Origin: Paenibacillus sp. MAEPY2
GTDB lineage: Bacteria; Bacillota; Bacilli; Paenibacillales; Paenibacillaceae
Reading direction: 5' to 3'
DNA: 64,000 nt
NCBI RefSeq assembly: GCF_000499205.1
Contig: NZ_AWUK01000038.1
Span: 186,001-250,000, forward strand
Shown here: piece after piece, positions 1 through 16,684 of the stretch
Layout of the letters: the number at the start of each line of letters is the position of its first letter
Numbering within the stretch: position 1 is the first letter of the stretch
Program-made: the position numbers and the translations under genes
Notes under the pieces: generated by a model
What the model was told of the DNA's origin: nothing
What the model saw: the letters and a program-made list of their open reading frames with translations, nothing else
The model's database searches: none

Positions 1-920
1 TATGGCCAGTGGATGAGTATACCAAAAACGATAAAGTGTTTAACCAGAAAACAACGAACCAATACATGCAGTATGAAGGTCGGGGATATGGCTTCACAGA
101 GGACCAATCTTCATTCATAAGCGGTATTTTCTATAATCGCACACTCATGCAGGAACTGGGTATGAAGCCGTTACAGGAATACGTGGACGAAGATCAATGG
201 AGCTGGGATACGTTCATTGAAGTTGCCAAAAAGGCGAACAAGGATCGCAATAACGATGGCAAGCTCGATACCTGGGGTTTGGCACAAACAGGGCTGCTTG
301 AACCTGTGCTGTACTCCAATGAGGCCTCGCTGACCAAGGGTGACAAGCAAAACCTGGATGATCCAAAAACAAAAGAAGCGCTGAAATTCGTGTCCAGAAT
401 GGCTACGGAAAAAGTGGGAAGAGCTTCGGAAGGCGGCGACTGGACGGAACCGGCTACCTTCTTTCGGCAAGGCAATACGCTGATGTATTCCGGCGCCATG
501 TACGAGATTGAAGGAATTAAGACAGATATGCAGGATTATGATATCGGCTTCCTTCCGTTCCCGAAAGGACCAAGTGCGACCACCTACCACTCCGGTGAAT
601 CGCAATATCAGGCACTTACCATTCCGAAAGCGGTTGAAAATCCGGAACAACTGATGTACATCTGGGAAAAAATCAACGAGATTGACTCCATCTACGATTA
701 CCCTAGTCAGTCTACCCTGGAGACTCACCTGACGGACGAAGCCGATATTGAAAATGCAAAAACGGTTGCCGAGGGCATGCTGGTGCTGGACCATAATACG
801 TTCCCATCTCTGCCGTTCTGGGATTTTAACGGTGAGCTGGTCGATGGTGTTTCCGTTTCCACCGTTATTGAAAAATATAAAGCACCCTTCCAGGCAGCCA
901 TCAGTGAGGTATACAAATGA
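1..920 (+). CDS. Sugar ABC transporter solute-binding protein, C-terminal part (5' end outside window)
   Basis: The reading frame is open from the window edge (codons from base 3) to the TGA at 918-920, so this is the last ~305 residues of a longer protein; the GTG at 9 is not a credible start because no ribosome binding site precedes it and the frame continues upstream. The composition and order of motifs (aromatic-rich middle with GGDWTEPATFF, then NTLMYSGAMYE, a GFLPFPKGP segment, and a C-terminal helix with PFQAAISEVYK) are those of family-1 carbohydrate SBPs that lie outside the membrane and deliver oligosaccharides to a permease pair. It is followed 59 bases downstream by a second, much larger SBP and then by permeases, so it heads or belongs to the operon ending near 12273. 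The substrate cannot be told from sequence; plant oligosaccharide is inferred from context. Confidence 0.85.
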   Translation, partial: WPVDEYTKNDKVFNQKTTNQYMQYEGRGYGFTEDQSSFISGIFYNRTLMQELGMKPLQEYVDEDQWSWDTFIEVAKKANKDRNNDGKLDTWGLAQTGLLEPVLYSNEASLTKGDKQNLDDPKTKEALKFVSRMATEKVGRASEGGDWTEPATFFRQGNTLMYSGAMYEIEGIKTDMQDYDIGFLPFPKGPSATTYHSGESQYQALTIPKAVENPEQLMYIWEKINEIDSIYDYPSQSTLETHLTDEADIENAKTVAEGMLVLDHNTFPSLPFWDFNGELVDGVSVSTVIEKYKAPFQAAISEVYK

Positions 921-979
921 GTCATTTGCTAAATCCAATTGATGCAAAATGCTGAAATAAAAGGGGGACATATGGGAAC

Positions 980-3877
980 ATGCGGTCACGAAAGAAAAAG
1001 GGACTAATTGTGCTGCTCGCCTTTGCCATGATCTTCTCCTTATTGAGTCTGTACCCTACGCGAGATCGCGGTCCGGGCATTGCACAGGCGTACGAGGACT
1101 TTGAAGCGGTGTCGGGTACAGCTGATTCCCGCAGCTATGAGCACTACATCTCCACTCTCTCAAACATAGATACACCTGATCAGATTATACGAATTGAGGG
1201 GGAAGCTTTCCTGCAGGCTGCGGACGGGGAGTTTGAGGTTATTGATGGCTACGCAGGGCTGGACGGAAAGGCTGTAGTCACACCTGAGTCTGGCACCATC
1301 AGTTGGAATGTTCCTGTGCAGTCCAGTGGTTTATACCAACTACGCATTCATTATTATCCAGTAGCAGGCAAAAGCTCCGCGATTGAACGGAAGCTGGAGC
1401 TGAATGGAGAGGTTCCTTTCAGAGGAGCGGATGTGCTGCTTTTTGACCGAGTATGGGGGAATCGCGAAGACACGATACGAAGAGACGATCGTGGCAATGA
1501 TCTCAGACCCCGGCAGGTCGAAACACCAGCTTGGCAGCTTGCCTCCTTCAAGGACAGCGCAGGTTATTTCGAAGAGCCCTATCAGTTTTATTTTGAAAAG
1601 GGCAACCAGCAGCTGTCGCTAACCTCGCTGCGCGAAAGTATGGCGATCGATTATATCGAGCTATATCAGGAAGAGAGTATCCCGGCTTACGAAGAGCTTC
1701 AGGCTGGTTATGAATCGGCGGGCTTGAAGCCGGCTGAGCCCGTCATGCTCAAGCTGCAGGGAGAACAGGCAGTGAGCAAATCCTCACCAACCCTTGCTCC
1801 CATCTCGGATCGCTCAAGCCCATCTCTTGAACCATATGACGTCTCCAAGATCCGTATCAACGCCATTGGAGGCCTCAACTGGAAGCTTCCTGGGGAATGG
1901 ATCGAATGGGATGTCGATGTACCAGCTGACGGCCTGTATCAAATTGCGCTCAAAGTGAAGCAGGATCAGCTTCGCGGCGTGTATGCCACGCGGAGTCTGA
2001 TGATCGACGGTAAAGTTCCATTCAAGGAAATGGAGCGTATTCGCTTCAACTACAGCCCTGATTGGCAGACGCGGGTGCTGGGCACGAGTGAAAGTGAACC
2101 TTATCTGTTTCATTTGAAAAAAGGAACGCACCGTTTGCGAATGACCGTTACGCTGGGGGATATTGCCCCACTACTGCGAACGGTGGAATCCAGCGTGCTG
2201 GAGCTAAATGAAATGTATCGCAAAATTTTGATGATTACATCCAACAAGCCTGATCCGCTCAGGGATTATCAGTTGGAGCAGCGCATTCCTGAGATGACGG
2301 AAGTATTCAAGCGGCAGGCCGGCATTCTCCGTTCTGTTGCGGATTATTTGGAGAAGGCAACTGGTGAACAGAGTGACAAGGTAGCCGTATTACACGCCAT
2401 GGTTGTTCAACTGGAGGATATGGCGGCAAGGCCGGAGACGGTTCCGAAACGTCTGGATACCTTCAAGATCAATGTGGGCGGGCTGGGAACATGGATTTTG
2501 TCTGTCCGTGAACAGCCTATAGCGCTGGATTATCTCCTGGTGTCCTCGCCTAATCATGAGCTGCCCAATGCTGAGGCTAACCTTTTACAGCGGATGAAGC
2601 ACGAAGTGGGTGCCTACGTCGCTTCCTATACAGAGGATTACGACAGTATTGGCAATATGAAGCAGAATACGAATTCCATTACCGTGTGGATTACTACCGG
2701 ACGCGACCAGGCACAGGTTTTGAAAAGCCTGATTGATGATTCCTTTACTCCTGAAACTGATATTTCAGTCCAGCTGCGTCTCGTTCCGCCCAATATTTTG
2801 CTGCCTGCTACGCTTGCTGGAGAAGGGCCGGATGTAGCCATGCAGATGGGCGAAGATATTCCCGTCAATTACGCCATGCGGAATGCAGCGGCTGATCTGA
2901 GCGGCTTCCCGGACTTTGTTAAGGTTGCGGAGAGGTTCCGAGAAAGCGGACTGACGCCGTACCGATTCAACAACGGGGTGTATGCCCTGCCGGAGCAGCA
3001 GCATTTTCCAATGCTGTTTTATCGGAAAGATATCTTGAATGAACTTGGCCTGGAGCCACCCCAAACATGGCAGGACGTTTATAATGCCATCTCGGTATTG
3101 CAAAAACATAATATGGAGTTTTACCTGCCTATCGAGGATGCGACGAACAATGCCAACATGATACCGAACGCAACGTTTGCCATGTTGCTTTATCAGAACA
3201 ATGGCGAATTTTATGCGGAAGATCAGAAAGCAAGTGAGTTGAATTCAGAGATTTCCATGGATGCGTTCAAGCGGTGGACCCAATTCTACACCAATTACAA
3301 ATTCCCGCTTAAAGCCGATTTCCCCAACCGCTTCCGCACCGGAGAGATGCCAATTGGAATTGCGGACTACACAACCTACAACATGCTAACCGTCATGGCG
3401 CCGGAAATTCGCAATCTGTGGGATTTCACAATCGTACCTGGCACGGAGCTGGAAGATGGGTCCGTAAGGCATGAGGTGGCAAGTGCCACAAGTGCAGTCA
3501 TGATGCTGGAAAATGCCAAAAACAAGGATGCTGCCTGGATGTTCATGAAATGGTGGACTGACAAGCAGACCCAGATTGAATACGGCAGGGAAATGGAAGG
3601 CCTGATGGGCGCTGCGGCTCGTTACCCGACCGCCAATATCGAAGCACTGGAGCAGCTGCCTTGGCCTGTTAAGGATTACCAAAACCTGGAGAAGCAATGG
3701 GAGTGGGTGCAAGGCATTCCTCAAGTTCCCGGTGGATATTTTACAGGCCGACACCTGGACAACGCGTTCCGCAAAGTGGTCAATGCGAATGAGAACCCGC
3801 GCGAGGCCTTGTCAGACTACGTTCTGTATATCAACGATGAGATCGAACTCAAGCGAAAGGAATTCAATCTGAAGTAG
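980..3877 (+). CDS. Large extracellular solute-binding protein with two N-terminal carbohydrate-binding-like domains
   Basis: A 965-residue protein. Residues ~8-30 form a hydrophobic segment after an RKKK stretch, but there is no lipobox cysteine, so it is probably anchored by an uncleaved signal helix or secreted. Residues ~70-235 and ~290-410 are beta-rich modules sharing the pattern GLYQ(L/I), (L/M).(L/I)(N/D)G(E/K)VPF and a late (Y)LFHLKKGTHRL/FYFEKGNQQLSL strand, typical of CBM6/CBM35-like sandwiches. A helical stretch (~410-560) leads to an SBP fold at ~560-965 (GPDVAMQMGED, LPEQQHFPMLFYRKDILNELGL, DAAWMFMKWWTD). The ATG at 980 follows AAGGGGG at 961-967. Ordinary SBPs are 420-560 residues, so this is about twice the usual size. 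It sits between another SBP and a permease pair, which suggests polymer or large-oligosaccharide capture next to the importer. The domain assignment is by eye. Confidence 0.8.
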   Translation: MRSRKKKGLIVLLAFAMIFSLLSLYPTRDRGPGIAQAYEDFEAVSGTADSRSYEHYISTLSNIDTPDQIIRIEGEAFLQAADGEFEVIDGYAGLDGKAVVTPESGTISWNVPVQSSGLYQLRIHYYPVAGKSSAIERKLELNGEVPFRGADVLLFDRVWGNREDTIRRDDRGNDLRPRQVETPAWQLASFKDSAGYFEEPYQFYFEKGNQQLSLTSLRESMAIDYIELYQEESIPAYEELQAGYESAGLKPAEPVMLKLQGEQAVSKSSPTLAPISDRSSPSLEPYDVSKIRINAIGGLNWKLPGEWIEWDVDVPADGLYQIALKVKQDQLRGVYATRSLMIDGKVPFKEMERIRFNYSPDWQTRVLGTSESEPYLFHLKKGTHRLRMTVTLGDIAPLLRTVESSVLELNEMYRKILMITSNKPDPLRDYQLEQRIPEMTEVFKRQAGILRSVADYLEKATGEQSDKVAVLHAMVVQLEDMAARPETVPKRLDTFKINVGGLGTWILSVREQPIALDYLLVSSPNHELPNAEANLLQRMKHEVGAYVASYTEDYDSIGNMKQNTNSITVWITTGRDQAQVLKSLIDDSFTPETDISVQLRLVPPNILLPATLAGEGPDVAMQMGEDIPVNYAMRNAAADLSGFPDFVKVAERFRESGLTPYRFNNGVYALPEQQHFPMLFYRKDILNELGLEPPQTWQDVYNAISVLQKHNMEFYLPIEDATNNANMIPNATFAMLLYQNNGEFYAEDQKASELNSEISMDAFKRWTQFYTNYKFPLKADFPNRFRTGEMPIGIADYTTYNMLTVMAPEIRNLWDFTIVPGTELEDGSVRHEVASATSAVMMLENAKNKDAAWMFMKWWTDKQTQIEYGREMEGLMGAAARYPTANIEALEQLPWPVKDYQNLEKQWEWVQGIPQVPGGYFTGRHLDNAFRKVVNANENPREALSDYVLYINDEIELKRKEFNLK

Positions 3878-3895
3878 AGGAAGGGAGGGGAACGG

Positions 3896-4852
3896 TTGCA
3901 CGCAGAAACCACCAAGGCATCGACTGCTCCTGCCATTCACGCAAGACAGGACAGTCGGTGGTCCCTTATGAAACGGGATTTGTATCGAAGCAGACACTAT
4001 TACGTTCTAATGGCACCGTTTATGCTGATCTTTTTCATGTTTACTGTCATTCCGGTAGGTATCTCGCTGGGACTCAGTTTTTTCCACTTCAACATGCTGG
4101 AGCTCCCTCGATTTATTGGCTGGCAAAATTACTCGCGCCTGTTTCTGAATGACGATGTTTTTTTGATTGCGCTTAAAAATACGCTGCTGTTTGCCGTTAT
4201 TACGGGGCCTGTCAGCTATATTGCCTGCTTTTTATTTGCATGGATTATCAATGAGCTGTCCCCGAAAATCCGTGCAGTCATGACACTCGTATTCTATGCA
4301 CCTTCCATTTCAGGAAACGTTTTTTTCATCTGGTTAATCGTGTTCTCCGGAGACAGCTATGGGTATATGAACGGCTTTCTCATGCGCCTTGGCGTTATTC
4401 TGGAACCGATCCAGTGGCTTTCGAATGAGAAGTACGTGCTGGCAATTGTCATCCTCGTACAGTTGTGGCTCAGTCTCGGCACGAGCTTCCTGGCCTTCAT
4501 TGCGGGTCTGCAAACGATTGACCGTTCTCTGGTCGAAGCGGGTACGGTGGACGGTATCAAAAACCGTTGGCAGGAGCTTTGGTATATTACACTGCCTTCG
4601 ATGAGACCACAGCTCATGTTTGGGGCGGTCATGCAGATTACAGCCTCGTTCGCTGTGGCCGAAATCTCCATCGCACTGGCCGGTTTTCCGAGCGTTAACT
4701 ATGCAGCGCATACCGTTGTAACCCACTTGATGGACTTCGGCACCATTCGGTTCGAGATGGGCTATGCGTCCGCGATCGCAACTGTTTTGTTCGCCCTGAT
4801 GCTGGGAACGAACATACTGACACAAAAAATGCTGAGAAAGATAGGTGAATGA
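3896..4852 (+). CDS. Sugar ABC transporter permease (UgpA/LplB type)
   Basis: A 318-residue membrane protein with about six hydrophobic segments and the permease signature (EAA-loop) as EAGTVDGI at roughly residues 220-227, followed by the usual LP at the end of the loop; this loop docks on the ATPase. The start is a TTG after AGGAAGGGAGGGG. The gene is 18 bases downstream of the large SBP and overlaps the next permease by four bases (ATGA), so the two are translated together as a heterodimer. There is no ATPase gene nearby, which is the rule for this importer class in Bacillota, where a shared MsmX-type ATPase energises many permeases (family knowledge). The N-terminal cytoplasmic tail of ~35 residues is longer than average. 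Confidence 0.9.
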   Translation: MHAETTKASTAPAIHARQDSRWSLMKRDLYRSRHYYVLMAPFMLIFFMFTVIPVGISLGLSFFHFNMLELPRFIGWQNYSRLFLNDDVFLIALKNTLLFAVITGPVSYIACFLFAWIINELSPKIRAVMTLVFYAPSISGNVFFIWLIVFSGDSYGYMNGFLMRLGVILEPIQWLSNEKYVLAIVILVQLWLSLGTSFLAFIAGLQTIDRSLVEAGTVDGIKNRWQELWYITLPSMRPQLMFGAVMQITASFAVAEISIALAGFPSVNYAAHTVVTHLMDFGTIRFEMGYASAIATVLFALMLGTNILTQKMLRKIGE

Positions 4853-5730
4853 CAATGACCAGCAAGGTACGTGCCGTTTTTGGCATGCCGAGAAGACTCA
4901 ACCGGTCATTTTCCGTCAGCCTGATGCTGTTTGCGCTGCTGGCGCTGTTCGGGTCATTCATGGTATTGCCGCTGATCTACACGGTTAACAATGCCTTCAA
5001 ACCGCTTGATGAGCTGTTTATATTTCCGCCACGCTTTTGGGTAAACAATCCGACGATGGAAAATTTCTCGGATCTGATCAATCTGATGGGTAACTCCTGG
5101 GTTCCTTTATCCCGGTATATTGCCAATACACTGTTGATTACGCTGCTCGGGACGGCGGGCCATATCCTGTTGGCCTCCGCGGCGGCATACCCGCTGGCTA
5201 AATATCGGTTTCCCGGCTCGAATGTGCTGTTTACCATCGTCATCCTGTCGCTGATGTTCTCGCCACACGTCACGGCGATTCCGAACTACATGGTGATGTC
5301 CTGGCTTGGATGGATCAACACACATGCATCCATCATTGTGCCTTCTCTCGCATTTTCCCTCGGGCTCTTCCTGATGAAGCAGTTTATGGAACAGATCCCC
5401 GATGCGCTGCTGGAGGCCGCCAAAATCGACGGGGCAAATGAATATCGTATATTTTGGAGCATCGTGATGCCTAACGTGAAGCCAGCCTGGCTGACGCTTA
5501 TGATTTTACAATTTCCGGCCCTATGGGGAACAGACGGCGGAAGCTTCATTTACAGCGAAAATCTGAAAACACTGCATTATGCGCTTAGTCAGATTATCCA
5601 GGGGGGGATTGCCCGAGCAGGGGTCGGTGCTGCAGTGGCACTGCTGCTTATGATCGTGCCAATCACGCTGTTTATCATCTCCCAGAGCAGTGTCATGCAG
5701 ACGATGGCAACTTCCGGTATGAAAGAGTAG
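4849..5730 (+). CDS. Carbohydrate ABC transporter permease (MalG type)
   Basis: A 293-residue membrane protein with six predicted membrane spans. Its EAA loop reads EAAKIDGA in the second half of the protein and ends in MP, as in MalG-like subunits. The ATG overlaps the stop of the preceding permease (ATGA), indicating translational coupling and a 1:1 complex. It would form half of the channel for oligosaccharides delivered by the SBPs encoded upstream. Downstream, only 16 bases separate it from the NHL-propeller protein, so the propeller protein is in the same transcript and may be an accessory of this importer. Confidence 0.9.
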   Translation: MTMTSKVRAVFGMPRRLNRSFSVSLMLFALLALFGSFMVLPLIYTVNNAFKPLDELFIFPPRFWVNNPTMENFSDLINLMGNSWVPLSRYIANTLLITLLGTAGHILLASAAAYPLAKYRFPGSNVLFTIVILSLMFSPHVTAIPNYMVMSWLGWINTHASIIVPSLAFSLGLFLMKQFMEQIPDALLEAAKIDGANEYRIFWSIVMPNVKPAWLTLMILQFPALWGTDGGSFIYSENLKTLHYALSQIIQGGIARAGVGAAVALLLMIVPITLFIISQSSVMQTMATSGMKE

Positions 5731-5746
5731 AAGGGGGGCAGCAACA

Positions 5747-7207
5747 TTGAAAAGCATGTGGAAAAGATGCGGATGGATCACCATGGCTCTTGCCTGCCTC
5801 CTTTACTTGGGGAATGCGGCGTCAATAGCTTACGCCGACGGACAGACGAATGCGTACAATTATTCGTACTGGGGAGAGGCGGTTCGTTCTCCTGCCGCAT
5901 ATGAGGCGACAACAATCATTACAGGCACGGGGCTGAAGATTGACGCATTCAAAGAACCGACTGACATGCACGTTACGGCTGATGAGCGAATTTACGTGCT
6001 GGATTCAGGCAACAGCCGAATCGTTGAGTTGGATCGGGATTTTAATCTGACACGGATTATCGATTCATTTGATCATGATGGACAGAAGGATCACTTCAAA
6101 CATCCGCAAGGATTATACGTTTCGGACGACGGCCAACTGCTCATCGCCGATTCGGATAATCAACGGATTGTTCATCTGAATGAGCAGGGGCAATTGATTA
6201 AAATGGTGGACCTGCCTCAATCCGACCTCCTGAAGGAAGATTTCCAATTCAGACCCATACGCGTTGTTATGGATAAAGGAGAGCGGATCTATGTCATGGC
6301 GGAAGGTGTCTTCGACGGTTTCATGGAGTTTAATTCCGACGGTTCATTCGCCTCGTTTATCGGCGCTAACAGAGTTTCGGTCGATCCGGTGGAATATCTA
6401 TGGAAAAGATTCGCCACTCGTCAGCAGCGCAGTCAGATGGTCATGTTCACACCAACCGAGTTTACGAATATGGACATTGACGAGGAGGGCTTCATTTATG
6501 CAACCAGCGGTGACCAGACCGGACTCCCCATCAAGAAACTGAATGCACAGGGCGCGGATATTCTAAGAAGGGAAGGATACTATCCGCCCCAGGGTGACTT
6601 GTTGTACAGCAATGAGAAAGGGCCTTCGCGGCTGATTGATGTCGATGTCGGGGACAGCGATATGTATTCCGTGCTTGATGCCAATATGGGTCGGATTTTC
6701 ACCTATAACGGGGACGGATATTTGCTTCACATGTTTGGAGGTATCGGCAATCGGCTCGGACAATTTAATACGCCTGTTTCTCTGGAGCGTGCCGGGGATC
6801 GGATGCTGGTGCTGGACAAAGCACTTGGAGAAATCACCGTTTTTCAAACTACTGAATACGGGCGTACGCTTCATGAGGCAGTACGCAGTTATTTCAATGG
6901 GGACGAGGAAGGCTCTGCGAAGCAATTTGCCAAAGCTGCAGACATGAATGCCAATCTCGAATATGCCTACGCAGGTATTGGAAAAGCGCTGTTGCGGCAG
7001 AAGGATTATGCCGAATCTACGCAATACTTTAAACGAAGCATGGAACGAGAAGGGTATTCCAAAGCGTTTCTTCTGTATCGAAAAGACCTGCTCCGCGAGC
7101 ATTTTTCATGGATAATGTCCGGGCTGATTCTGGTTGCTGCCGGGCTGGTAGCCATAACCATCGTTCGCAGACAGAGAAAGGGGACAACGAATGCAGGCAT
7201 CAAGTAG
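5747..7207 (+). CDS. NHL-repeat beta-propeller protein with TPR segment and C-terminal membrane anchor
   Basis: A 486-residue protein starting with TTG after AAGGGGGG. A signal peptide (~1-28, ending near SIAYA) is followed by NHL-type blades across ~50-365, seen as repeated (P)x(G/D)(L/M).V..(D/E)..(I/L).VLDSGNSRIV / LLIADSDNQRIV patterns. A TPR-like helical pair lies at ~380-440 (FNGDEEGSAKQFAKAADMN, LEYAYAGIGKALLRQKDYAES), and a membrane helix at ~457-475 is followed by positive RRQRKG. The topology implied is propeller and TPR outside, anchored by the C terminus. NHL propellers bind proteins or ligands; the role here is unknown. It overlaps the following YIP1 gene by 17 bases, and permeases flank both, so a scaffold or sensor for the importer is a reasonable inference. 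Confidence 0.8.
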   Translation: MKSMWKRCGWITMALACLLYLGNAASIAYADGQTNAYNYSYWGEAVRSPAAYEATTIITGTGLKIDAFKEPTDMHVTADERIYVLDSGNSRIVELDRDFNLTRIIDSFDHDGQKDHFKHPQGLYVSDDGQLLIADSDNQRIVHLNEQGQLIKMVDLPQSDLLKEDFQFRPIRVVMDKGERIYVMAEGVFDGFMEFNSDGSFASFIGANRVSVDPVEYLWKRFATRQQRSQMVMFTPTEFTNMDIDEEGFIYATSGDQTGLPIKKLNAQGADILRREGYYPPQGDLLYSNEKGPSRLIDVDVGDSDMYSVLDANMGRIFTYNGDGYLLHMFGGIGNRLGQFNTPVSLERAGDRMLVLDKALGEITVFQTTEYGRTLHEAVRSYFNGDEEGSAKQFAKAADMNANLEYAYAGIGKALLRQKDYAESTQYFKRSMEREGYSKAFLLYRKDLLREHFSWIMSGLILVAAGLVAITIVRRQRKGTTNAGIK

Positions 7208-7826
7208 ACAATGGGTCCGATATCCGCTGCATCTTATTTTTCACCCGTTTGACGGCTATTGGGAGCTGAAATACGAGCGAAATCAGAAAACAACGCTGAT
7301 GATTGCGTTGGTCATTCTGGGATTGCTGGCGATCACGACGATCCTTCAGGCACAATATAGCGGGTTCCTGGTCAATTATAACAATCCGAAACGGTTGAAC
7401 AGTCTGCTGGAAATGGTCTATGTCATTGTTCCGGTATTGTTCTGGTGTACAGCGAATTGGTCGTTAACCACACTCATGGACGGTGAAGGCAAATTCTCGG
7501 AAATCTTCATGTCCACCTGTTTCGCATTGGTTCCGCTGATTCTGATTCAGTTTCCGTGGATTTGGCTCAGCCTAATGATTTCCGGGCAGGAAACGGCCTT
7601 TTATTATTTTTTCAACCTGGCTGCAACAGCTTGGACGGTATATCTGTTATTTGTAGGCAATATGACTGTGCATCAGTATTCGCCGGGCAAAACGGTGCTT
7701 ACCATGCTTTTGACGCTGGTTGCCATGGCCTTCATGGCATTTCTCTGCCTGCTGTTCTTCAGTCTGGTGCAGCAGATTGTGTCCTTTGCAGCCACCATCT
7801 ATCAGGAACTTGTACTCCGGGGCTAA
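7191..7826 (+). CDS. YIP1-family multi-span membrane protein
   Basis: A 211-residue protein with a short N-terminal region containing HLIFHPFDGYWELKYE, the usual opening of bacterial YIP1-domain proteins, followed by about five hydrophobic helices. No enzymatic motif is visible. Its ATG lies inside the end of the propeller gene, 14 bases after AAAGGGGAC, so the two are translationally coupled. Bacterial YIP1 proteins have no settled function. In this operon it separates the propeller protein from the DUF5696 lipoprotein, which suggests a membrane partner for one or both. Confidence 0.75.
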   Translation: MQASSRQWVRYPLHLIFHPFDGYWELKYERNQKTTLMIALVILGLLAITTILQAQYSGFLVNYNNPKRLNSLLEMVYVIVPVLFWCTANWSLTTLMDGEGKFSEIFMSTCFALVPLILIQFPWIWLSLMISGQETAFYYFFNLAATAWTVYLLFVGNMTVHQYSPGKTVLTMLLTLVAMAFMAFLCLLFFSLVQQIVSFAATIYQELVLRG

Positions 7827-7841
7827 GGAAGGAGAATGGAG

Positions 7842-10412
7842 ATGATTTTGTACGTGGCCAAAAAAATGCCCGTGATCCTGCTCGTTTTCATCCTGTTTCT
7901 TGGCGGCTGTCAGCCCGACTCTACGCCTGTAACTACGTTGTCGGCAAATGCGGATGAACAAGCAGAAGTGCCTGTACTGCAGCCTGGTCAGAAGCTGGCC
8001 TCATCCTTCAGCGATGCCCGTCTGCCAGACATGCTCGGGCTTGCCCAGAATGATGAGCTGCAGCTACTCATCCAGGAGGATACAGCTGAGATTGCGGTGA
8101 TTCACAAGCAAAGCGGGCAGATCTGGCGCAGCAATCCGGAAGATCGGAAGATCGATTCGCTTGCGTCGGGAATCAATAAGGATCTGCTGTCTGCACAGTC
8201 CAAGCTGAGCTTCTATAACAGTCTGGGTCAGAGCAGCTCGGTCAATTCCTATACGGACAGCGTAGCTCACCAGCAGATAAGCTACGAAGCATTGCCGAAT
8301 GGGGTTCGGGTGAACTACCAGTTCGGAACCAATGAGAGTTCTGTGGAAGATCTGCCTGTAAAAATCAGCAAAGAGCGCTTCGAACAGAAGCTGCTTGCCT
8401 TGCTCGACAAGGCAGGACAACGTGCCTTGAAGATTGGGTATGCAGAGGAGAAGGACGCGGGTGTATACGTTCGGAACGACAAAGCGCTGCAGGGTCTTCA
8501 GTTGACGCGTGCTCTGAAGGCTTTTGAGACAGCCGGCTACACGTCCGAGGACCTTGAGCTGGACAATGCCGAGCATGGCATCGAGCAGGAAAAAAGCGGC
8601 CCCCGATTGTTTATGCTATCCATTGAATATGAGCTGGATCAGGAATCATTGGTTGTACGTGTACCTGCCTCTGGCATCCATTTTCCAGAGCAATACCCGA
8701 TCAACAGCATATCCGTGCTGGATTATTTCGGGGCTGGCGCAGCGGATCAGGAAGGTTCCCTGTTTGTACCTGATGGGTCGGGAGCACTCATTCATTTTAA
8801 TAATGGAAAGGTACAATACCCTGCCTATCAGCAGGATGTATACGGACCGGATCTGACGATGAAGCTTCGTGAAGCGGACTCCTCCGAGGAAAGAGCAAGG
8901 CTGCCGGTATTCGGTCTCATTCGTGAGGGCGGCGCATTTCTTGGCATCATTGAGGAAGGCGCAGCGGTGGCGGTTGTAAATGCAGATATCAGCGGAAAGC
9001 TGAATAGCTACAACAATGTGTATCCGAGCTTCTACCTTGTAAACAAAAGTGATGTAACACTCCAAGCCAGCGACATGGTACGGACACTTCCCAAGTTTCA
9101 GAAGAAGCCGACCGCATCGGATTTTGTCGTCCGTTATGCCTTTGCCGGGGCAGAGAAAGCCTCTTACTCCGGTCTGGCTTCCTTATATCGTGACTACTTA
9201 ATCCAGACGAATGGCCTTCCTGCGAACCAAACAGCTGGGGGAGAAATGGATATTCCGTTTTACCTGAAGCTTATCGGCGGAATGACGACCAGAAAACATA
9301 TGTTGGGCATACCCTACGATTCTACCGAAGCGTTGACCACCTTTGATGAAGCCCGGCAGATTCTGTCGATCCTTAAGAAAAAACAAGTATCCAACATTCA
9401 GGTTCGGTATGCGGGATGGTTTAATGAAGGGCTTCAACATCAGATACCGGATTCCATCAAAGTGGATGGAGCGATTGGAGGACGAAAAGGCATGCAAGAA
9501 TTCAGCGACTATGCTCGTAAGGAGGGAATTGGATTTTACCCCGATGTCGCTGTACTAAATGTACATTCCAAGACAGGATTCAGTCCTTCCAAGGAAGCTT
9601 CACGCACACTGACGCAGGAGCCTGCACTTCTATATCCGATGGACCCGGCAAGACAGCGGCGTGACCGGGATCGACTTCCGTCCTATATCCTGTCTCCGCA
9701 TTTGCTGGGAGATGTGACTCAAGACCTGCTGAAAGCACTCCAGCCCTATGAGCAAGGGGGATTGTCGGTGCGTGATCTTGCTGATCAAGTGAACAGTGAC
9801 ATGAATCCGAAGAAACTGCTGGATCGCACAGGAGCACAAACAGCCGTCACCGAGAGCTTGAAGCAGATTGCGCAGCAAGGGCTATCTGTTGTTGCCGAAG
9901 GCGGGAATGCGTATGCACTGCCCTATGTGACAGATCTCACGGATGCCCCAATGTCCAGCAGCCGCTTCAAGCTGGAGGATGAGGAGATTCCGTTCTTCCA
10001 ACTGGTTGTACATGGTGGCATCAGCTATACGGGAGCTTCTTACAACCTGTCAACCTATACGGATGCGAGACAGTATGTACTAAAGCTCGTGGAGTATGGG
10101 GCAAGCCCGTATTTTACTTGGTTTAACGCACCGAATCATGTTGTGAAGGAAACGGATTACGACAATCTGTATGCTGCGCACTATGGACAATGGATTGATC
10201 TCGCTGCGGAGATGTATGAAGAGGTCAATCAGGCCAATCGTCCTTTCGCAGGGCTTCACATGGTGGCACACGAGAAGCTGGCTGAAGGGGTGTATCAAAC
10301 GACATATGAAAACGGAAGCTTCGCTCTGGTGAATTATAACGACTTCCCGGTGCAGGCAGGCGGTCATAACGTGGAACCCAAAAGTTACGTGACAGGTGGT
10401 GAGCAACTCTGA
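7842..10412 (+). CDS. DUF5696-type lipoprotein, possible glycoside-hydrolase-like TIM barrel
   Basis: About 856 residues. The ATG at 7842 is preferred over 7836 because AAGGAAGGAG ends at 7834. A signal peptide ends in LGGC, so Cys23 would be lipidated and the protein displayed on the outer face of the membrane. The N-terminal ~400 residues are beta-rich. From ~475 there is an alternating strand/helix pattern with strand-like cores VSNIQVRYAGWFNEG, GIGFYPDVAVLNVH, LSVRDLADQVNSD, LSVVAEGGNAYAL and IPFFQLVVHGG, and a late SPYFTWFNAP, which resembles the barrel of polysaccharide hydrolases of the GH31/36/101 type. That resemblance is my inference, and no catalytic residue is proven. The protein is common next to sugar ABC transporters of Paenibacillus. 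It sits between the YIP1 gene and a permease pair. Confidence 0.75.
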   Translation: MILYVAKKMPVILLVFILFLGGCQPDSTPVTTLSANADEQAEVPVLQPGQKLASSFSDARLPDMLGLAQNDELQLLIQEDTAEIAVIHKQSGQIWRSNPEDRKIDSLASGINKDLLSAQSKLSFYNSLGQSSSVNSYTDSVAHQQISYEALPNGVRVNYQFGTNESSVEDLPVKISKERFEQKLLALLDKAGQRALKIGYAEEKDAGVYVRNDKALQGLQLTRALKAFETAGYTSEDLELDNAEHGIEQEKSGPRLFMLSIEYELDQESLVVRVPASGIHFPEQYPINSISVLDYFGAGAADQEGSLFVPDGSGALIHFNNGKVQYPAYQQDVYGPDLTMKLREADSSEERARLPVFGLIREGGAFLGIIEEGAAVAVVNADISGKLNSYNNVYPSFYLVNKSDVTLQASDMVRTLPKFQKKPTASDFVVRYAFAGAEKASYSGLASLYRDYLIQTNGLPANQTAGGEMDIPFYLKLIGGMTTRKHMLGIPYDSTEALTTFDEARQILSILKKKQVSNIQVRYAGWFNEGLQHQIPDSIKVDGAIGGRKGMQEFSDYARKEGIGFYPDVAVLNVHSKTGFSPSKEASRTLTQEPALLYPMDPARQRRDRDRLPSYILSPHLLGDVTQDLLKALQPYEQGGLSVRDLADQVNSDMNPKKLLDRTGAQTAVTESLKQIAQQGLSVVAEGGNAYALPYVTDLTDAPMSSSRFKLEDEEIPFFQLVVHGGISYTGASYNLSTYTDARQYVLKLVEYGASPYFTWFNAPNHVVKETDYDNLYAAHYGQWIDLAAEMYEEVNQANRPFAGLHMVAHEKLAEGVYQTTYENGSFALVNYNDFPVQAGGHNVEPKSYVTGGEQL

Positions 10413-11311
10413 AAGCGCTACTAAAGGGGAAGTGGGGACGCCGAACCTACGCTCAGCAGAAAGCGGTCTGGGGAGTCATCTATGTGCTTCCCTGGCTCGT
10501 CGGTTTTGTCCTGTTCTTCCTGGTTCCGCTGCTGGCTTCCTTGCGCTACAGCCTGAGTTCAATTCAGGCGAATGCACAGGGGATATCCATCCAGTTCACA
10601 GGTCTCGCCAACTATATCCAGGCAATGACGGTAAATACCAGCTTCAACCGGGCACTGATCGAATCCATCACAGATGTGCTCGTTAATGTGCCTCTGATCG
10701 TAATATTCAGCCTGTTCCTTGCAGTTATTCTGAATCAGAGGTTTCCGGGGCGAGCAGTAGCGAGATCCATATTTTTTCTGCCGGTGATTCTGGCATCCGG
10801 CGTCATCATGACGCTGGAAAGCACCAGTCTGATCGAGGCTGTGAACCAGAGCAATACAGGTGGCAGCGCCTTGGGAACCTTTGAGATTGAAAAGCTGATG
10901 CTGGATGCGGGGTTGAGCGAATGGGTCGTGACATATCTGAGCGGTGCGGTAGACCGGATATATCAGATTGTCAGTCAATCCGGTGTACAGATTCTCATAT
11001 TTTTGGCAGGTATCCAAACGATATCGCCCCAGCTATATGAAGCATCCAAAATGGAAGGGGCCACTGGATATGAAGCGTTCTGGAAAATCACGTTTCCGAT
11101 GGTCAGCCCACTCATTTTTGTGAACGTCATTTACACCATCGTCGATTCTTTTGCAAACAACGCCATGACCAAGCTTATTCGCGATACAGGCTTCGTTAAA
11201 TTTGATTTTGGGTTAAGCTCAGCCATGGCATGGGTGTATTTCCTGGCTATTGCCGTCATTCTGGTGATCGTTTCACTTATTTTCTCCAAACGTGTCTTCT
11301 ATCAAGATTAG
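10409..11311 (+). CDS. ABC transporter permease with apparent CTG start
   Basis: About 300 residues with six membrane spans and the EAA loop EASKMEGA ending in FP. The first conventional start in frame is GTG at 10484, but it would fall inside the first membrane helix. The same frame is open back to a TGA at 10400-10402 and encodes a basic cytoplasmic tail beginning LKALLKGKWGRR, as in related permeases. The only start-like codon that keeps the tail is CTG at 10409, overlapping the stop of the DUF5696 gene as CTGA and preceded by AGGTGGTGAG. I therefore place the start there; translational coupling would explain use of a rare codon. It pairs with the next permease. Substrate unknown. Confidence 0.8.
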   Translation: MKALLKGKWGRRTYAQQKAVWGVIYVLPWLVGFVLFFLVPLLASLRYSLSSIQANAQGISIQFTGLANYIQAMTVNTSFNRALIESITDVLVNVPLIVIFSLFLAVILNQRFPGRAVARSIFFLPVILASGVIMTLESTSLIEAVNQSNTGGSALGTFEIEKLMLDAGLSEWVVTYLSGAVDRIYQIVSQSGVQILIFLAGIQTISPQLYEASKMEGATGYEAFWKITFPMVSPLIFVNVIYTIVDSFANNAMTKLIRDTGFVKFDFGLSSAMAWVYFLAIAVILVIVSLIFSKRVFYQD

Positions 11312-11331
11312 AAAAGGGGGTGTGTGCGTTG

Positions 11332-12273
11332 ATGATATCAAGACTGTTGTCGCTGGAGCAGTGGAAAAGCTGGCTGTGGTCTGTTGTGAGATTCACACTC
11401 ATTGCAGGGCTATCCTTCGTTATTTTGTTTCCTATCTTTCAGAAGATATCAACGTCCATCAAGGATAAAAGTGATTTGTATTCCGCGGTTGTCGTCTGGA
11501 TTCCACAGAATTTCTCTATCGACAATTTTCGAGAGGCTATTCGTGTCATGGATTACTGGGCAACGCTGTTCAATACGTTTGCGTTGTCTGCAACAACGAC
11601 TATTTTGACCACGCTTTCCTGTGCACTTGCCGGATACGGGTTTGCCCGCTTGAAGTTTAAGGGAAGTAATCTGTTGTTCGCCGGAGTCATTCTGACCATA
11701 CTGGTGCCGCCCACCACGATCCTGATCCCGGTGTATCTGAATCTGAAGAGCTTCGATCTCATGGGACTGATGACGCTGATTGCAGGCAAACCCGTCAATC
11801 TGCTGAATACGTACTGGCCGTTTATTTTGACTGCCATAACAGCCAATTCGCTCAAAGCAGGTTTGTACATTTTTATCTTTCGCCAATTTTTCAGGGGCAT
11901 TCCCAAAGAGGTGGAGGAAGCCGCTTACGTTGATGGTGCAGGGATCAGCCGAACCTTTACACGTATTATGCTCCCAAATGCAATTCCATCAATCGTTACT
12001 GTACTGCTGTTTTCTTTCGTCTGGCAATGGAATGACAGCTTCTACACGACAACCTATCTGACGTCCAGCAAGGTGATGTCAACGCAGCTGTCTTCTCTTC
12101 CATATAATCTGGCACAGCAGGTTAGTGATGGCGCATCCAAAGCCGATCCATTCTATCTGAGCATGATTCAGGATACAGGCATTCTGCTGGCGATCCTGCC
12201 TTTAATCATCATTTATCTGTTTGTGCAGCGTTATTTCGTTGAAAGTGTTGAACGTACTGGCATCGTTGGATAA
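11332..12273 (+). CDS. Carbohydrate ABC transporter permease
   Basis: A 313-residue MalG-type permease. The ATG at 11332 is chosen because AAAAGGGGGTG precedes it by about nine bases and because the open frame upstream overlaps the previous permease. There are six hydrophobic spans and an EAA loop EAAYVDGAG ending in LP. It is the last gene of the long operon; 15-20 bases after its stop there is a small GGGGCT/AGCCCC hairpin. With the preceding gene it gives this operon a second complete permease pair, so the locus carries two channels but no ATPase. Confidence 0.88.
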   Translation: MISRLLSLEQWKSWLWSVVRFTLIAGLSFVILFPIFQKISTSIKDKSDLYSAVVVWIPQNFSIDNFREAIRVMDYWATLFNTFALSATTTILTTLSCALAGYGFARLKFKGSNLLFAGVILTILVPPTTILIPVYLNLKSFDLMGLMTLIAGKPVNLLNTYWPFILTAITANSLKAGLYIFIFRQFFRGIPKEVEEAAYVDGAGISRTFTRIMLPNAIPSIVTVLLFSFVWQWNDSFYTTTYLTSSKVMSTQLSSLPYNLAQQVSDGASKADPFYLSMIQDTGILLAILPLIIIYLFVQRYFVESVERTGIVG

Positions 12274-12290
12274 TGATTCTCTCTTGAATG

Positions 12291-12316
12291 GGGGCTGGAA
12301 GGTCTAGCCCCTTTAT
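12291..12316 (+). terminator. Short hairpin after the long transporter operon
   Basis: GGGGCT (12291-12296) pairs with AGCCCC (12306-12311) across a 9-base loop and is followed by TTTATAG. The U tract is poor, so termination is probably incomplete and some read-through into the GH5 gene is possible. Confidence 0.4.
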
Positions 12317-12377
12317 AGTAAAGGAGGTGTTGCCTTCCGTTTTAACGTTTTACACTTTAAGCTCAGGAGGGATTATA

Positions 12378-14072
12378 TTGAAGAGATGGTTGGTATCTTG
12401 TAAATTTATGATCATTCTCGGTTTGCTATTGTCTATTATGCCGTTCGGAACCGAACGTGCGGAAGCGTGGGTCGGCATGCCGATGGGCAAGCTTCATGTC
12501 AGCGGCAAAAACTTGGTGAACAGTAGTAACCAGCCCGTCGTGCTAAGTGGCTGGCATCAGCCTTCAGGCGCCTACTGGACATATCAGAACAGCAATTATT
12601 ATCTGAATCTTCATGGCAACAACCGTCATGCTGCCACATTGGCTTACCTGAAGGATATTACGGATACATTCACAAGTACAAGCCCGAAATACGGAAGCAG
12701 CCACGGCTGGAATATGAATCAGATTCGGCTGTTCATTGACCGTGAGGACATGGGCGATGTGGCGGCAGGCACCTACAATTTTGCAGGTGTACAAGCCGTG
12801 ACACAGAACGTCATTATTCCTTATATACAATATGCCAAAACCAAAGGCGTCTATGTTACGCTTGGACTCGATTTCACACTGAAGGATGATCAGGCCACCA
12901 CTTCGGCCAATCTGCAAAAGTTCAATCAGATCTGGGGTTATCTCGCTGCTCGTCCAGAGATAAAAAGTGCCGATAATGTACATTTCGAGCTGATCAACGA
13001 GCCGGTAAAATCCTATGCGAACGGACATTGGGGTGGTTATAACGGCGAGAACGACTTTGTGGACCACTGGAACGACTTGCGCAATTTCCAGAATTCCATC
13101 ATCTCGACCATTCGGAGCCAAGGCGCGGATAATGTCATCTGGGCCGCTGGTTTGGGATATAACCAATTCTACAGTCTGACAGCAAGCCATCCGTTGACAG
13201 ACCCGCTGAACAATTACGGTTATGCCGTTCACTGGTATCCGGGTTACGGAGCATATGACAACATGTCCATTCTGCAAGATCAATGGAATACCAATGTAAA
13301 GGCAGCTGCTGATAATTATCCGATTAACATCACCGAAGTCACTTGGTTCAAAAAGAAAGCCGGCGATTCCGAATACTGGAATCTGTTCAATGGCAGCAAT
13401 GAAGGCTTTGGTAACAATACGAAGACCATTTTCAACGCGGCAGGCAATGTAAGTATTGCAGCTCACATGAACGGTTTTATTCTGGATGCTGGACAGCGAA
13501 GCTCCTTTGCTGATCCTACGGCAGGATTGAAATGGGACGGTGATGCTTCAAGAAGCGCAATGGGACGATTTCTCTTCGAATGGTTCTATGAACGTGCTCA
13601 GACCTATCCAAACGGTGGCACTCCATCAAGCGGTCTAGTCTCGGGTGCGACCTACAAGATTGTGTCCAGACATTCGAACAAGGTTATTGATGTACCGGGT
13701 GGGGTAAACGAGAACAACTTGCAGCTTCAGCAATGGTCTGATCTGGGGGGCAATCCTCAAAAGTGGGTCCTGAATCAAATAGCTAGCGGAATTTACAGTT
13801 TGACGAGTGTGAATTCGCCTGATAAGGTGATCGACATCCGAAATGGCACCAGTACCAACGGAGAGGCAGTACAGCTTATGAGTAATTTAAACACCACTGC
13901 GCAGCATTTCAAAATCAATGATCTGGGCAATGGGTACTGGAGTATTATTAACGTGAATAGCAATAAAGCCATTGAGGTAACCGGTTCTGCGACGACAGAC
14001 GGTGCAAAATTGCAGCAAAACGATTACACAGGCGGAACCAACCAGCAATGGAAGTTTGTAGCCGTCAATTAA
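12378..14072 (+). CDS. Secreted glycoside hydrolase family 5 with C-terminal ricin-type (CBM13-like) domain
   Basis: Start TTG at 12378, seven bases after AGGAGG (12365-12370), giving 564 residues. A signal peptide (LKRW... to ERAEA, cleavage near residue 30) sends it out of the cell. The GH5 barrel spans about 40-420, with the acid/base glutamate in LINEPV (Glu208) and the nucleophile in ITEVTW (Glu320). The C-terminal ~145 residues form a beta-trefoil with repeated (K/R)VIDV/KVIDI/KAIEV and QQW-type motifs, typical of sugar-binding ricin lectin modules. The subfamily and substrate (beta-glucan, mannan or xylan-type) cannot be fixed by eye. It follows the 1-12273 operon and ends at a terminator, so it may be co-transcribed or have a promoter in the 100-base gap. 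Confidence 0.85.
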   Translation: MKRWLVSCKFMIILGLLLSIMPFGTERAEAWVGMPMGKLHVSGKNLVNSSNQPVVLSGWHQPSGAYWTYQNSNYYLNLHGNNRHAATLAYLKDITDTFTSTSPKYGSSHGWNMNQIRLFIDREDMGDVAAGTYNFAGVQAVTQNVIIPYIQYAKTKGVYVTLGLDFTLKDDQATTSANLQKFNQIWGYLAARPEIKSADNVHFELINEPVKSYANGHWGGYNGENDFVDHWNDLRNFQNSIISTIRSQGADNVIWAAGLGYNQFYSLTASHPLTDPLNNYGYAVHWYPGYGAYDNMSILQDQWNTNVKAAADNYPINITEVTWFKKKAGDSEYWNLFNGSNEGFGNNTKTIFNAAGNVSIAAHMNGFILDAGQRSSFADPTAGLKWDGDASRSAMGRFLFEWFYERAQTYPNGGTPSSGLVSGATYKIVSRHSNKVIDVPGGVNENNLQLQQWSDLGGNPQKWVLNQIASGIYSLTSVNSPDKVIDIRNGTSTNGEAVQLMSNLNTTAQHFKINDLGNGYWSIINVNSNKAIEVTGSATTDGAKLQQNDYTGGTNQQWKFVAVN

Positions 14073-14091
14073 ACAAAATGTACAAAAGGAG

Positions 14092-14127
14092 CCTTCCAGC
14101 TATTGCGGCTGGGAAGGTTTCTTTTTG
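14092..14127 (+). terminator. Rho-independent terminator after GH5
   Basis: CCTTCCAGC (14092-14100) pairs with GCTGGGAAGG (14108-14117, one bulged G), followed by TTTCTTTTT. Confidence 0.75.
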
Positions 14128-14187
14128 GTGTTCAGAAGTAGTCCTCTATTAACCGCTAGTGGTTTAGTACAAAAATTTCAAGTATTT

Positions 14188-14241
14188 GTACCAAAAAGAT
14201 TAAGGTGTACCTTCACCACACACAAATGAAAGGTGTATTAT
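14188..14241 (+). promoter_or_regulatory. Promoter of the AraC regulator with paired GTACC half-sites
   Basis: GTACC at 14188 and again at 14207 (19-bp repeat unit, GTACC-N14-GTACC) lead directly into TTCACC (14212-14217, -35), an 18-base spacer and TATTAT (14236-14241, -10). An additional GTAC occurs at 14167. The same layout recurs at 16623-16676 before the transporter operon, so the repeats are probably the target of the AraC regulator encoded at 14286. Confidence 0.6.
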
Positions 14242-14256
14242 GAAACAAATCAATTT

Positions 14257-14270
14257 TGTAAACGTTTACC
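14257..14270 (+). promoter_or_regulatory. cre-like operator overlapping the start of the AraC regulator transcript
   Basis: TGTAAACGTTTACC differs from the cre consensus TGWAANCGNTNWCA only at the last base and contains the perfect palindrome GTAAACGTTTAC. It lies 16 bases after the -10 and just before the AAGGAGG at 14274-14280, a position where CcpA (or another LacI-family protein) would block elongation. Confidence 0.6.
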
Positions 14271-14285
14271 AAAAAGGAGGTACAA

Positions 14286-16607
14286 ATGCAGCGTCTATGG
14301 TTCAAATTCACGCCGTTATTCCGCAGATTTATGGTTTCTTATCTCATTATTCTGATGATTCCTCAAATTGCCGGATATGCCTCCTATAGGGCATCCATTG
14401 AAGCAGCGAGGACAAGCTCCATTGAAAACAGTCTGAAATCGCTCAACCTGGGCAAGGAAATTATTGAACGAAATCTCATGCAGGTCGAGGATTTCACAAG
14501 GCAGTTAGCGATTAACCAGGAGTTGTACCGTTTAATTGCTGATCCCAAGCCGCTCGATGCTAATAATGTTTATGGTTTGGGCCGTATGCAGCGCAGCCTG
14601 TCTATGTACAGCAGCACCAATGATTATTTGTCTCATTTCTTCATATATATTCCGAATTATAATGTCATCATCACGCCTACCACCGTTTACTACCGACCTG
14701 AGCATTATTACGCCACCAATGCGCTGGAAGGCATGACGTTCGAAGAATGGAAAGAAAACATTTTGAAAAAGCCACATTTAAACGAGATTATTCCCCTTCG
14801 GAACTACAAGCAGGAGATTCGCAGTAATCTGCTTGTGGACGCTCCGGCCATTACGTTTCTTCAATCGCTTCCTTTAAACAGCTTCAACAAACCTCAGGCT
14901 ACCATCGGTGTCATGATTGATGAGAATCAGATGGCGAGCCTGACTCAACATATTGTGGAGCAATATGGAGGGTGGACACTGGTAACAGACGCCAATGGGA
15001 ACATCATTTTTTCGCGTGGCATGAGTACAAGTGAGGCAAAGCAACTGAAGGATATTCCTGCTGCCAAGGATCGTGAAGTGCAGCCTATGGGAGACGGTCG
15101 TCTGCTGATTTCCATTCGCTCTGATCAAAATGGCTGGAATTACATGGCTGGCATTCCCGAACGGGCGTTAATGATAAAAGCAGACCAGATCAAGCAGGTT
15201 ACCTTTACCTTCACGTTAGCCACACTTGGTTTCGGACTAATCATTGGACTTTTACTGGCTTACCGCAACAGTGCGCCGATTCATAAGCTTTTGTTCGTGT
15301 TTCGGGATCAGAATATCGGACTACCGGGAAAAATAAGTAATGAGTACGATTTCTTGGCCAGCAATATTACGAGTCTTATTACGAACAACCATCTTCTCAA
15401 AAATGCCTTGAATGAGCAGCTCCCGATGCTGCGAGACGGGTTCATCAAGCGTTTGTTGAACGGTGAGTTTTATACAACCCGTGAGTTGGAGGCGATCTCT
15501 TCCCAGACAGACATTTCGCTTCATACCAGTCGTGGGGTTGTGGGGATTATGAGAGTGGATGGCTATGGCAGCCCGGATAGCGAAGAAATTATTCAAGAAT
15601 TAAGTGTTGCGAGGCTAATCGTGCGTGAAGCGCTGACGACATGGAATGCGGATGTTTTGATAACGGAGTGGGGAACGGATCAGATTGCTTTTGTGCTACC
15701 GCTCAGGGATGAAGCTTTGGATCAAACCTTGCTCACATGTGAAGCCCAATTGATGAAACTGATGGATTCTGTGTATCAGGACTACCGGGTATCGACGACC
15801 ATCGGTATCGGTTCTTCATATGATGTATGGAATGACGTTGGCCGTTCGTTCAACGAGGCCAGACAAGCGCTCGAATATGCCATTCACATCGGGGCGGACC
15901 AATTAGTAAAATTCGAAAACGCTGTAAAGGAAACCGAATTGTACTACTATCCGATGGAGTCCGAGCAGCGGCTGATAAATACGCTTAAGGCGGGAGAGAT
16001 GGAAGAATCCAAGCGTAACTTGGATCAACTGTTTAGCCGAAACTTCGCAGAGCAAGAGCTGTCGTACGATATGACACAGCAATTTATAATGGAATTAAGG
16101 GGAACATTTCTAAAGCTGGAGCCTAAGATCATGCTGGATGAAGCGCTTGTCGAGGAGTTCAAGAATCGGATCACTGGGATTCAGGTCACGGACAGTGTTG
16201 CCGTATTGCGGGACAAGTTCCATCAGCTGGCGGAAGAGGTCTGCCAGAACGTGCAACGTAAAAAATCCAACATGCATGCGGAAATTGTCAATGAAACAAT
16301 GGCTTACATCCAGAAGCATTATACCGATGCGAACCTGACGGTGTACCGGATTGCGGAACAAATGGGCAAACCGGAAAAATATATCTCCCAATTATTCAAG
16401 GAGCATACCGGAGAGAACCTTTCCGACTATGTAGAGGTGGTGCGAATCAGCAAAGCAGCTGAGTTGCTGCTTGAGAGCCAGCAGACGATTGATGAGATTG
16501 CACAGACAACCGGATATAATAGCGCACATTCGTTCCGAAGAGCCTTCAAACGCGTTAGGGGCATCTTGCCAAGTGCATTTCGGCAGATGGAAGATCAAAT
16601 GAAATGA
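14286..16607 (+). CDS. Membrane-bound AraC-family transcriptional regulator
   Basis: A 773-residue one-component regulator. A first membrane helix at ~16-35 (FMVSYLIILMIPQIAGY), an extracytoplasmic sensor region ~36-300 and a second helix at ~303-325 (TFTFTLATLGFGLIIGLLL) are followed by a cytoplasmic region. The C-terminal ~100 residues are an AraC-type double helix-turn-helix (TVYRIAEQMGKPEKYISQLFKEHTGENL and IDEIAQTTGYNSAHSFRRAFKR). The ATG follows AAGGAGG by five bases. This architecture is common next to sugar ABC operons in Paenibacillus, where it senses a ligand outside and activates the operon. The next three genes encode such an importer, and the shared promoter elements support control of both itself and that operon. 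Confidence 0.9.
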   Translation: MQRLWFKFTPLFRRFMVSYLIILMIPQIAGYASYRASIEAARTSSIENSLKSLNLGKEIIERNLMQVEDFTRQLAINQELYRLIADPKPLDANNVYGLGRMQRSLSMYSSTNDYLSHFFIYIPNYNVIITPTTVYYRPEHYYATNALEGMTFEEWKENILKKPHLNEIIPLRNYKQEIRSNLLVDAPAITFLQSLPLNSFNKPQATIGVMIDENQMASLTQHIVEQYGGWTLVTDANGNIIFSRGMSTSEAKQLKDIPAAKDREVQPMGDGRLLISIRSDQNGWNYMAGIPERALMIKADQIKQVTFTFTLATLGFGLIIGLLLAYRNSAPIHKLLFVFRDQNIGLPGKISNEYDFLASNITSLITNNHLLKNALNEQLPMLRDGFIKRLLNGEFYTTRELEAISSQTDISLHTSRGVVGIMRVDGYGSPDSEEIIQELSVARLIVREALTTWNADVLITEWGTDQIAFVLPLRDEALDQTLLTCEAQLMKLMDSVYQDYRVSTTIGIGSSYDVWNDVGRSFNEARQALEYAIHIGADQLVKFENAVKETELYYYPMESEQRLINTLKAGEMEESKRNLDQLFSRNFAEQELSYDMTQQFIMELRGTFLKLEPKIMLDEALVEEFKNRITGIQVTDSVAVLRDKFHQLAEEVCQNVQRKKSNMHAEIVNETMAYIQKHYTDANLTVYRIAEQMGKPEKYISQLFKEHTGENLSDYVEVVRISKAAELLLESQQTIDEIAQTTGYNSAHSFRRAFKRVRGILPSAFRQMEDQMK

Positions 16608-16622
16608 AGTCGTACGTGATTC

Positions 16623-16676: not shown

Positions 16677-16684
16677 TACCAACA

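Follow-up and report, generated by a model that had tools for sequence, protein, structure and literature searches.

A conserved Bacillota gene module that may form a glycan-capture platform for ABC importers

To our knowledge, the handover of long, branched oligosaccharides to ABC importers in Gram-positive bacteria is poorly understood. The 64,000-nucleotide stretch of Paenibacillus sp. MAEPY2 DNA analysed here (the window) opens with a packed run of genes in which importer components adjoin proteins not expected of a sugar importer, raising the question of whether these products work together in glycan uptake. Pfam and profile searches recovered every part listed in an earlier note on this DNA, namely two solute-binding proteins (SBPs), two permease pairs, an NHL/TPR protein, a Yip1 protein and a DUF5696 protein. 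They are encoded by nine genes, A to I, all on the + strand, with a further gene, J, beginning 14 nt past the end of I.

Organisation of the locus and its products

The features of the locus, in window coordinates, are as follows.

1-920, + strand: gene A, lipoprotein-like SBP (Pfam SBP_bac_1), with 436 bases at its 5′ end falling before the window
980-3877, + strand: gene B, 965 residues, with an N-terminal hydrophobic segment, two beta-sandwiches (CBM-like), a helical part and a C-terminal SBP
1181-1672, + strand: domain 1 of B (residues 68-231), CBM6/CBM35-type fold (residues 21-184 of model mb11da7ce2527)
1748-2152, + strand: domain 2 of B (residues about 257-391), a second beta-sandwich with no family label, from the secondary structure of the model
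2717-3874, + strand: solute-binding domain of B (Pfam SBP_bac_1 at 580-865; 5ysb by profile)
3896-4852, + strand: gene C, permease (Pfam BPD_transp_1)
4849-5730, + strand: gene D, permease (Pfam BPD_transp_1), overlapping C by 4 nt
5747-7207, + strand: gene E, NHL propeller, TPRs and C-terminal hydrophobic segment (profiles)
7191-7826, + strand: gene F, Yip1 membrane protein (Pfam PF04893), overlapping E by 17 nt
7836-10412, + strand: gene G, DUF5696 protein (PF18952, 708 bits), lipoprotein-like, GH129-type fold, residues 67-858 aligned
10409-11311, + strand: gene H, permease (Pfam BPD_transp_1), probable CTG start within the stop of G (mechanical ORF from 10484)
11230-12273, + strand: gene I, permease (Pfam BPD_transp_1), given as ORF limits; the real start is probably past the end of H
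12288-14072, + strand: gene J, variable cargo, a secreted GH5-like domain with a ricin-B lectin domain
14286-16607, + strand: AraC-type regulator with a GGDEF-like domain (Pfam)

Gene A, truncated by the window, encodes 451 residues at full length (L003, 13565-14920). The start of H is most likely the CTG at 10409, overlapping the stop codon of G, rather than the GTG at 10484, as judged by hand from frame and homology; given this start, G and H overlap by 4 nt, in addition to the overlaps of C-D and E-F. The operon may extend into J, and the AraC-type gene would be a plausible regulator of the locus. The catalytic part of J (12372-13560) gave weak profile matches to GH5 endoglucanases (E 5e-6) and no Pfam match at E <= 0.001, and J possibly represents an undescribed GH5-like subgroup. 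Elsewhere in the window, the AraC-type gene is followed by another permease-permease-SBP importer (16760-20377), a similar run being found 3′ of the module in several relatives. A gene for a 1179-residue protein with DUF5107 and many TPRs (54895-58434) precedes a cellulase-like gene (58462-59817). A 462-residue secreted-looking protein (32114-33502), without a Pfam match at E <= 1e-5, presumably resembles a GH30 enzyme.

The expectation that the additional parts face outwards or sit in the membrane is in keeping with A, B, E and G, whose signal or anchor segments fit exposure on the outside: E, in which profiles detect NHL blades and TPRs, has a single C-terminal hydrophobic segment at 455-473, and G has a lipobox-like LGGC. 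The description of B as an SBP fused to CBM-like domains agrees with its AlphaFold model (pLDDT 85.0), in which two beta-sandwiches lie in tandem, the first of them CBM6/CBM35-like (Z 14-15 over 118-126 residues). A Cry protein headed the Foldseek list for this domain (E 9.8e-8), followed by a CBM35, with Cry-protein beta-sandwich domains scoring Z about 12.5-13, and no CBM family in Pfam matched B at E <= 0.001. By profile, the SBP part of B resembles SBP structures. The window permeases gave UgpA/UgpE/GlcU-like matches below the equivalog cut-offs. No ATPase gene was detected by Pfam among A-J, and two UgpC-type ATPases above the curated cut-off are encoded elsewhere in the genome.

Distribution, gene order and cargo of the module

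The MAEPY2 genome carries a second nine-gene copy in identical order (L004) on a different contig, placing the operon beyond chance grouping. The two copies share from 34.7% (G) and 35.0% (A) up to 71.8% (C) identity, and the second is followed by a gene for a GH26 protein, which matches an endo-mannanase best in the PDB. Above the cut-off, DUF5696 was present in 46 of the 60 genus genomes (a fragment in the case of G007) and in 26 of 299 genomes sampled across the phylum; the frequency of the module in the latter sample is thus about one in eleven. When 552 relatives with named genomes were scanned, the best 80 were mostly Paenibacillus and Cohnella and also included Gracilibacillus, Evansella, Amphibacillus, Lederbergia and others; the phylum and named-genome scans thus extend the range of the module beyond Paenibacillus. 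Eleven weak DUF5696 matches below the cut-off were rejected as members: most of the seven examined look GH13-like in sequence, and such matches are taken as a shared TIM-barrel signal.

Since all loci had been found via DUF5696, the profiles of E and F were searched independently against the 299 phylum genomes. The F profile (E <= 1e-20) matched 26 genomes. The E profile matched 45 at E <= 1e-15, 26 of them above 400 bits; the other 19 comprise a fragment (200 bits) in G301, which has no G, and sub-80-bit matches resembling general NHL proteins. The E, F and DUF5696 sets, compared by eye, are the same 26 genomes. The B profile (E <= 1e-40) matched 35 genomes, including all 26 (partially in G161, at a contig start). 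Its other matches are full-length in G162 and G212, cover 435 positions in G138 and are confined to the SBP in six genomes. G162 and G212 have a full-length B yet no match to E, F or G, and in both the contig ends within 710 bases on the downstream side of B.

Gene order was compared in 122 loci, all seeded on DUF5696 and consisting of the two MAEPY2 copies, 40 hand-picked loci (20 from the genus and 20 from the phylum) and the 80 from named genomes; the last were the top-scoring relatives, Paenibacillus for the most part, so the sample is biased, and two duplicate pairs leave 120 loci distinct by the end of G. The order B-C-D-E-F-G-H-I was kept in 112 loci, with EFGHI in eight, HIEFG in one and FG in one, in a count that merged repeated letters and scored fragmented genes (e.g. 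L041, L103) as present. The genes are thus mostly together in these loci, and the separate occurrence in most relatives by which the earlier note would have been refuted was not observed. Additional importer genes, seen as extra terminal C or I letters, are present in 16 of the 112. Three of the ten exceptions (L026, L062, L100) stop at contig edges; the remaining seven, all from families f45 and f60, have at least 1.7 kb upstream of E without B-C-D.

The reading of the module as a fixed nine-gene unit was weakened by 13 additional phylum loci. The order B-C-D-EF-G-H-I was found in three (two from f45/f60), EF-G-H-I in five and B-C after I in one, while L138, L142 and L144 are cut by contig ends and L132 (G301) gave no profile match; taken together with the 122, twelve loci have no B-C-D beside E. 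As B-C-D is absent or moved in these loci, the constant core is E-F-G-H-I, to which B-C-D does not belong. The permuted locus is L136 (G263, family f54; 8506-19499), which reads EF-G-H-I and then B and C. The module seems greatly expanded in some f45/f60 genomes of 2.2-3 Mb (G099, G121, G140, G193), with at least ten Yip1 matches each; G223 has eight. Genes for an ABC exporter-type protein (a cluster of 8 genes) and for a DUF1854 protein (a cluster of 7) recur beside the module, downstream of I in L010 and L065 (one locus) and likewise in others.

A single fused protein replaces separate E and F in 18 of the 122 loci, and the fusion state changes at least six times on a FastTree phylogeny of 121 G proteins; these fusions lend support to a partnership of the two proteins. 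Where unfused, the E and F reading frames overlap in 101 of 103 loci, compared with 56 of 112 for C-D and 86 of 120 for G-H. The last four letters of G, in 121 loci, are ATGA in 58, CTGA in 26, TTGA in 12 and GTGA in 9; a start of H inside these letters was frame-checked in the window and is also seen in L004. The 26 loci ending in CTGA form a natural set on coupled CTG initiation. Partial correlations of evolutionary rate, computed from pairwise distances over the 84 loci in which all nine genes were called apart, were highest for E-G (0.61), A-I (0.58) and C-D (0.49), which ranked first in 142, 56 and 2 of 200 subsamples, respectively, and low for E-F (0.04), H-I (-0.02) and B-C (0.06); raw correlations (0.89-0.98) did not discriminate. 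We rejected rate correlation as a contact map because these last three pairs, which are obligatorily in contact, lie near zero. By mean identity, G (0.47) and A (0.49) are the least conserved products, and C (0.74) and D (0.76) the most.

The enzymes encoded beside the module are variable. Downstream of I, the first gene on the same strand (up to 400 bp away, counted in 121 loci) encodes a GH5-like protein in 23, an SBP in 23, GH10 in 16, GH30 in eight, GH29 in three, GH26 in two, GH2 in two and GH106, GH31, GH5, GH43 or PF10091 in one each, with 15 others and 24 where there was none or it was not placed; GH classes derive from one Pfam-scanned member per cluster and the GH5-like class from profile matches, and the names of some SBP clusters come from phmmer labels or from visual inspection. 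This first downstream GH class changes at least ten times on the G tree. As the cargo enzymes vary while the core stays constant, the core resembles an exchangeable platform, found intact beside many different enzymes. Around the window module are genes for GH127, GH8, GH95 and an esterase, with GH43 upstream, from which its substrate is probably xylan or arabinoxylan; that of the second copy is probably beta-mannan.

Fold and catalytic residues of the DUF5696 protein

To the above distribution can be added a structural context for G. Its model (pLDDT 84.9, pTM 0.83) matched DagB (E 2.7e-32) and NagBb (1.8e-26) best in Foldseek, with Z scores of 31.7 and 31.2, respectively, and 20.5 for the first row of another kind. 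A profile built from 20 diverse DUF5696 members likewise matched DagB (3.8e-13) and NagBb (2e-9), and hhalign aligned GH129 with DUF5696 at a probability of 98.7 for this 20-row diverse set (540 columns) and 95.9 for a 56-row close set. In the window G protein, PF18952 was the sole Pfam match, PF11308 (GH129) not being detected at E <= 0.001; PF11308 has no match in the MAEPY2 genome and matches 18 of 148 genomes of the family.

The earlier note had raised the possibility that the assembly trims its polymer, and we therefore compared the catalytic positions. In alignment A7, which holds nine of 17 GH129 proteins, NagBb Asp435, placed by hand count in the motif YLDVF, corresponds to D385, present in all nine. 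Glu at position 429, which we take to be the acid/base of NagBb, is likewise found in 9/9. At the nucleophile the alignment may be off by some two residues, the Asp column falling on R646 with the 20-row set and on S644 with the 56-row set. Counting any acid at 644-647, 11 of 20 diverse members and 53 of 56 rows of the window's clade (D647) are acidic. Column 688 is Glu in 7 of 20 and 24 of 56, respectively; the window protein itself has E688, and its second copy has Ser. By this loose count, both canonical places are acidic in six of 20 diverse members and 35 of 56 clade rows, compared with 9/9 in GH129. Only D313, D339, D655 and E753 of the window's acids are acidic in at least 90% of the 20 diverse members, and D655, D715 and E716 are nearly invariant in the window's clade.

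As judged from these alignments, DUF5696 as a family does not conserve the catalytic Asp/Glu pair of GH129, which speaks against trimming as a family-wide property and makes a glycan receptor likelier than a trimming enzyme as the function of G. The window's clade appears to retain candidate catalytic acids, and G could be an enzyme there. The strongest rival explanation follows from this point: DUF5696 might form a new GH family near GH129 and act as a membrane-bound exo-glycosidase, using a different catalytic pair to trim oligosaccharides before import. The GH129-type fold of the model, the profile match to DagB, which is an active enzyme, and the conservation of D647, D655, D715 and E716 in the window's clade, together with the acids at both canonical places in 35 of its 56 rows, all favour such activity. 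Moreover, DagB is described as retaining only the Asp of NagBb's two catalytic residues (PMC5698469), implying that the catalytic machinery shifts within the superfamily. Against it stand the small number of acids kept across the 20 diverse members and the variability of column 688, including the Ser in the second copy; overall, we consider an enzymatic role of this kind unlikely. A word search of the open-licence literature for DUF5696 found no paper.

A putative capture platform and its relation to known systems

The module is well established as a conserved unit. Our preferred explanation, to which we give about even odds, is that it acts as a glycan-capture platform feeding CUT1-type ABC importers, and the scheme would run as follows. 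Secreted enzymes encoded beside the module would cut the polysaccharide, and B, anchored by its N terminus, would hold chains or long fragments through its CBM-like domains while its SBP domain supplies C/D. Lipoprotein A may supply the permease pair H/I. G, a GH129-shaped lipoprotein, would serve at the importer as an oligosaccharide-binding receptor or gate; the propeller of E, supported by its TPR stalk and membrane helix, would dock G; and F, often fused to E, would anchor this E-G arm in the membrane beside the permeases. An ATPase encoded elsewhere would energise both permease pairs. The minimal form would be EF-G-H-I, usually with an SBP gene nearby, B-C-D being an optional second importer. 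The module products may form one physical complex, and the role of G would be to bind glycan.

Two further explanations were weighed against this scheme. E-F-G could be a sensor, in which the propeller and DUF5696 bind glycan outside the cell and signal via Yip1 and the neighbouring regulators, controlling the operon rather than transport. An AraC-type regulator lies just downstream, histidine-kinase and response-regulator ORFs were noticed upstream by a look at the sequence, and E gave a profile match to the NHL domain of the kinase PknD; however, in the loci read, E, F and G have permease genes as neighbours, and the two copies in this genome have different regulators (AraC-type in the window, LacI-type in the second), so that a sensor seems improbable. 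Least probable is that two ordinary importers and three unrelated accessory proteins share one inherited operon without a common machine, since, although B-C-D is absent or moved in some loci, E, F and G have identical 26-genome profiles, E and F are repeatedly fused and the E-F-G-H-I order is constant in families far apart in the phylum.

Returning to the capture platform, its most specific form is a new multi-subunit uptake machine of the Bacillota, in which a catalytically retired GH129-fold lipoprotein on a propeller/TPR/Yip1 arm acts as the receptor-gate of ABC importers, exchangeable across polysaccharides, as a Gram-positive counterpart of SusD-like capture. We propose this tentatively, as a possibility that falls short of being probable. 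It would predict the conversion of a glycosidase fold into a receptor for a transporter, and the module places DUF5696 and a bacterial Yip1 family in a functional setting. A word search of titles and abstract openings in the open-licence literature found no description of the module among the matches listed.

The importer parts resemble CUT1-type systems of the Ugp/Msm/XynEFG kind in their SBP_bac_1 proteins, their paired BPD_transp_1 permeases and the location of UgpC-type ATPases outside A-J, but the module differs in having two SBPs, two permease pairs and E, F and G. The module is present in a record under the name Paenibacillus sp. LS1 (L060). The paper on Paenibacillus sp. LS1 describes a plain XynEFG with one SBP and two permeases (PMC10269863). 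G is most like the GH129/DagB-like proteins (NagBb, DagB), and then GH101, in its N-terminal beta-sandwich, TIM barrel and C-terminal beta domain. Unlike GH129, DUF5696 is a separate Pfam family, appears to be without the conserved Asp/Glu and, in the loci read, has importer genes next to its own. Gram-positive polysaccharide utilisation loci (gpPULs) also unite enzyme, transporter and regulator in one locus, elements represented in the window by J (GH5-like profile), the importers and the AraC-type gene (both by Pfam), and the definition consulted (PMC12827396) names no E-F-G core. In contrast to gpPULs, the core of the module is constant while the enzymes change. None of the ten module-region proteins scanned has a Pfam match to the TonB-dependent SusC or SusD families. 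In SusD of the Bacteroidota and in the ectodomains of 4F2hc/rBAT, a non-catalytic binding protein or an enzyme-fold ectodomain serves a transporter; G would resemble them in function, by analogy and with no claim of sequence relation.
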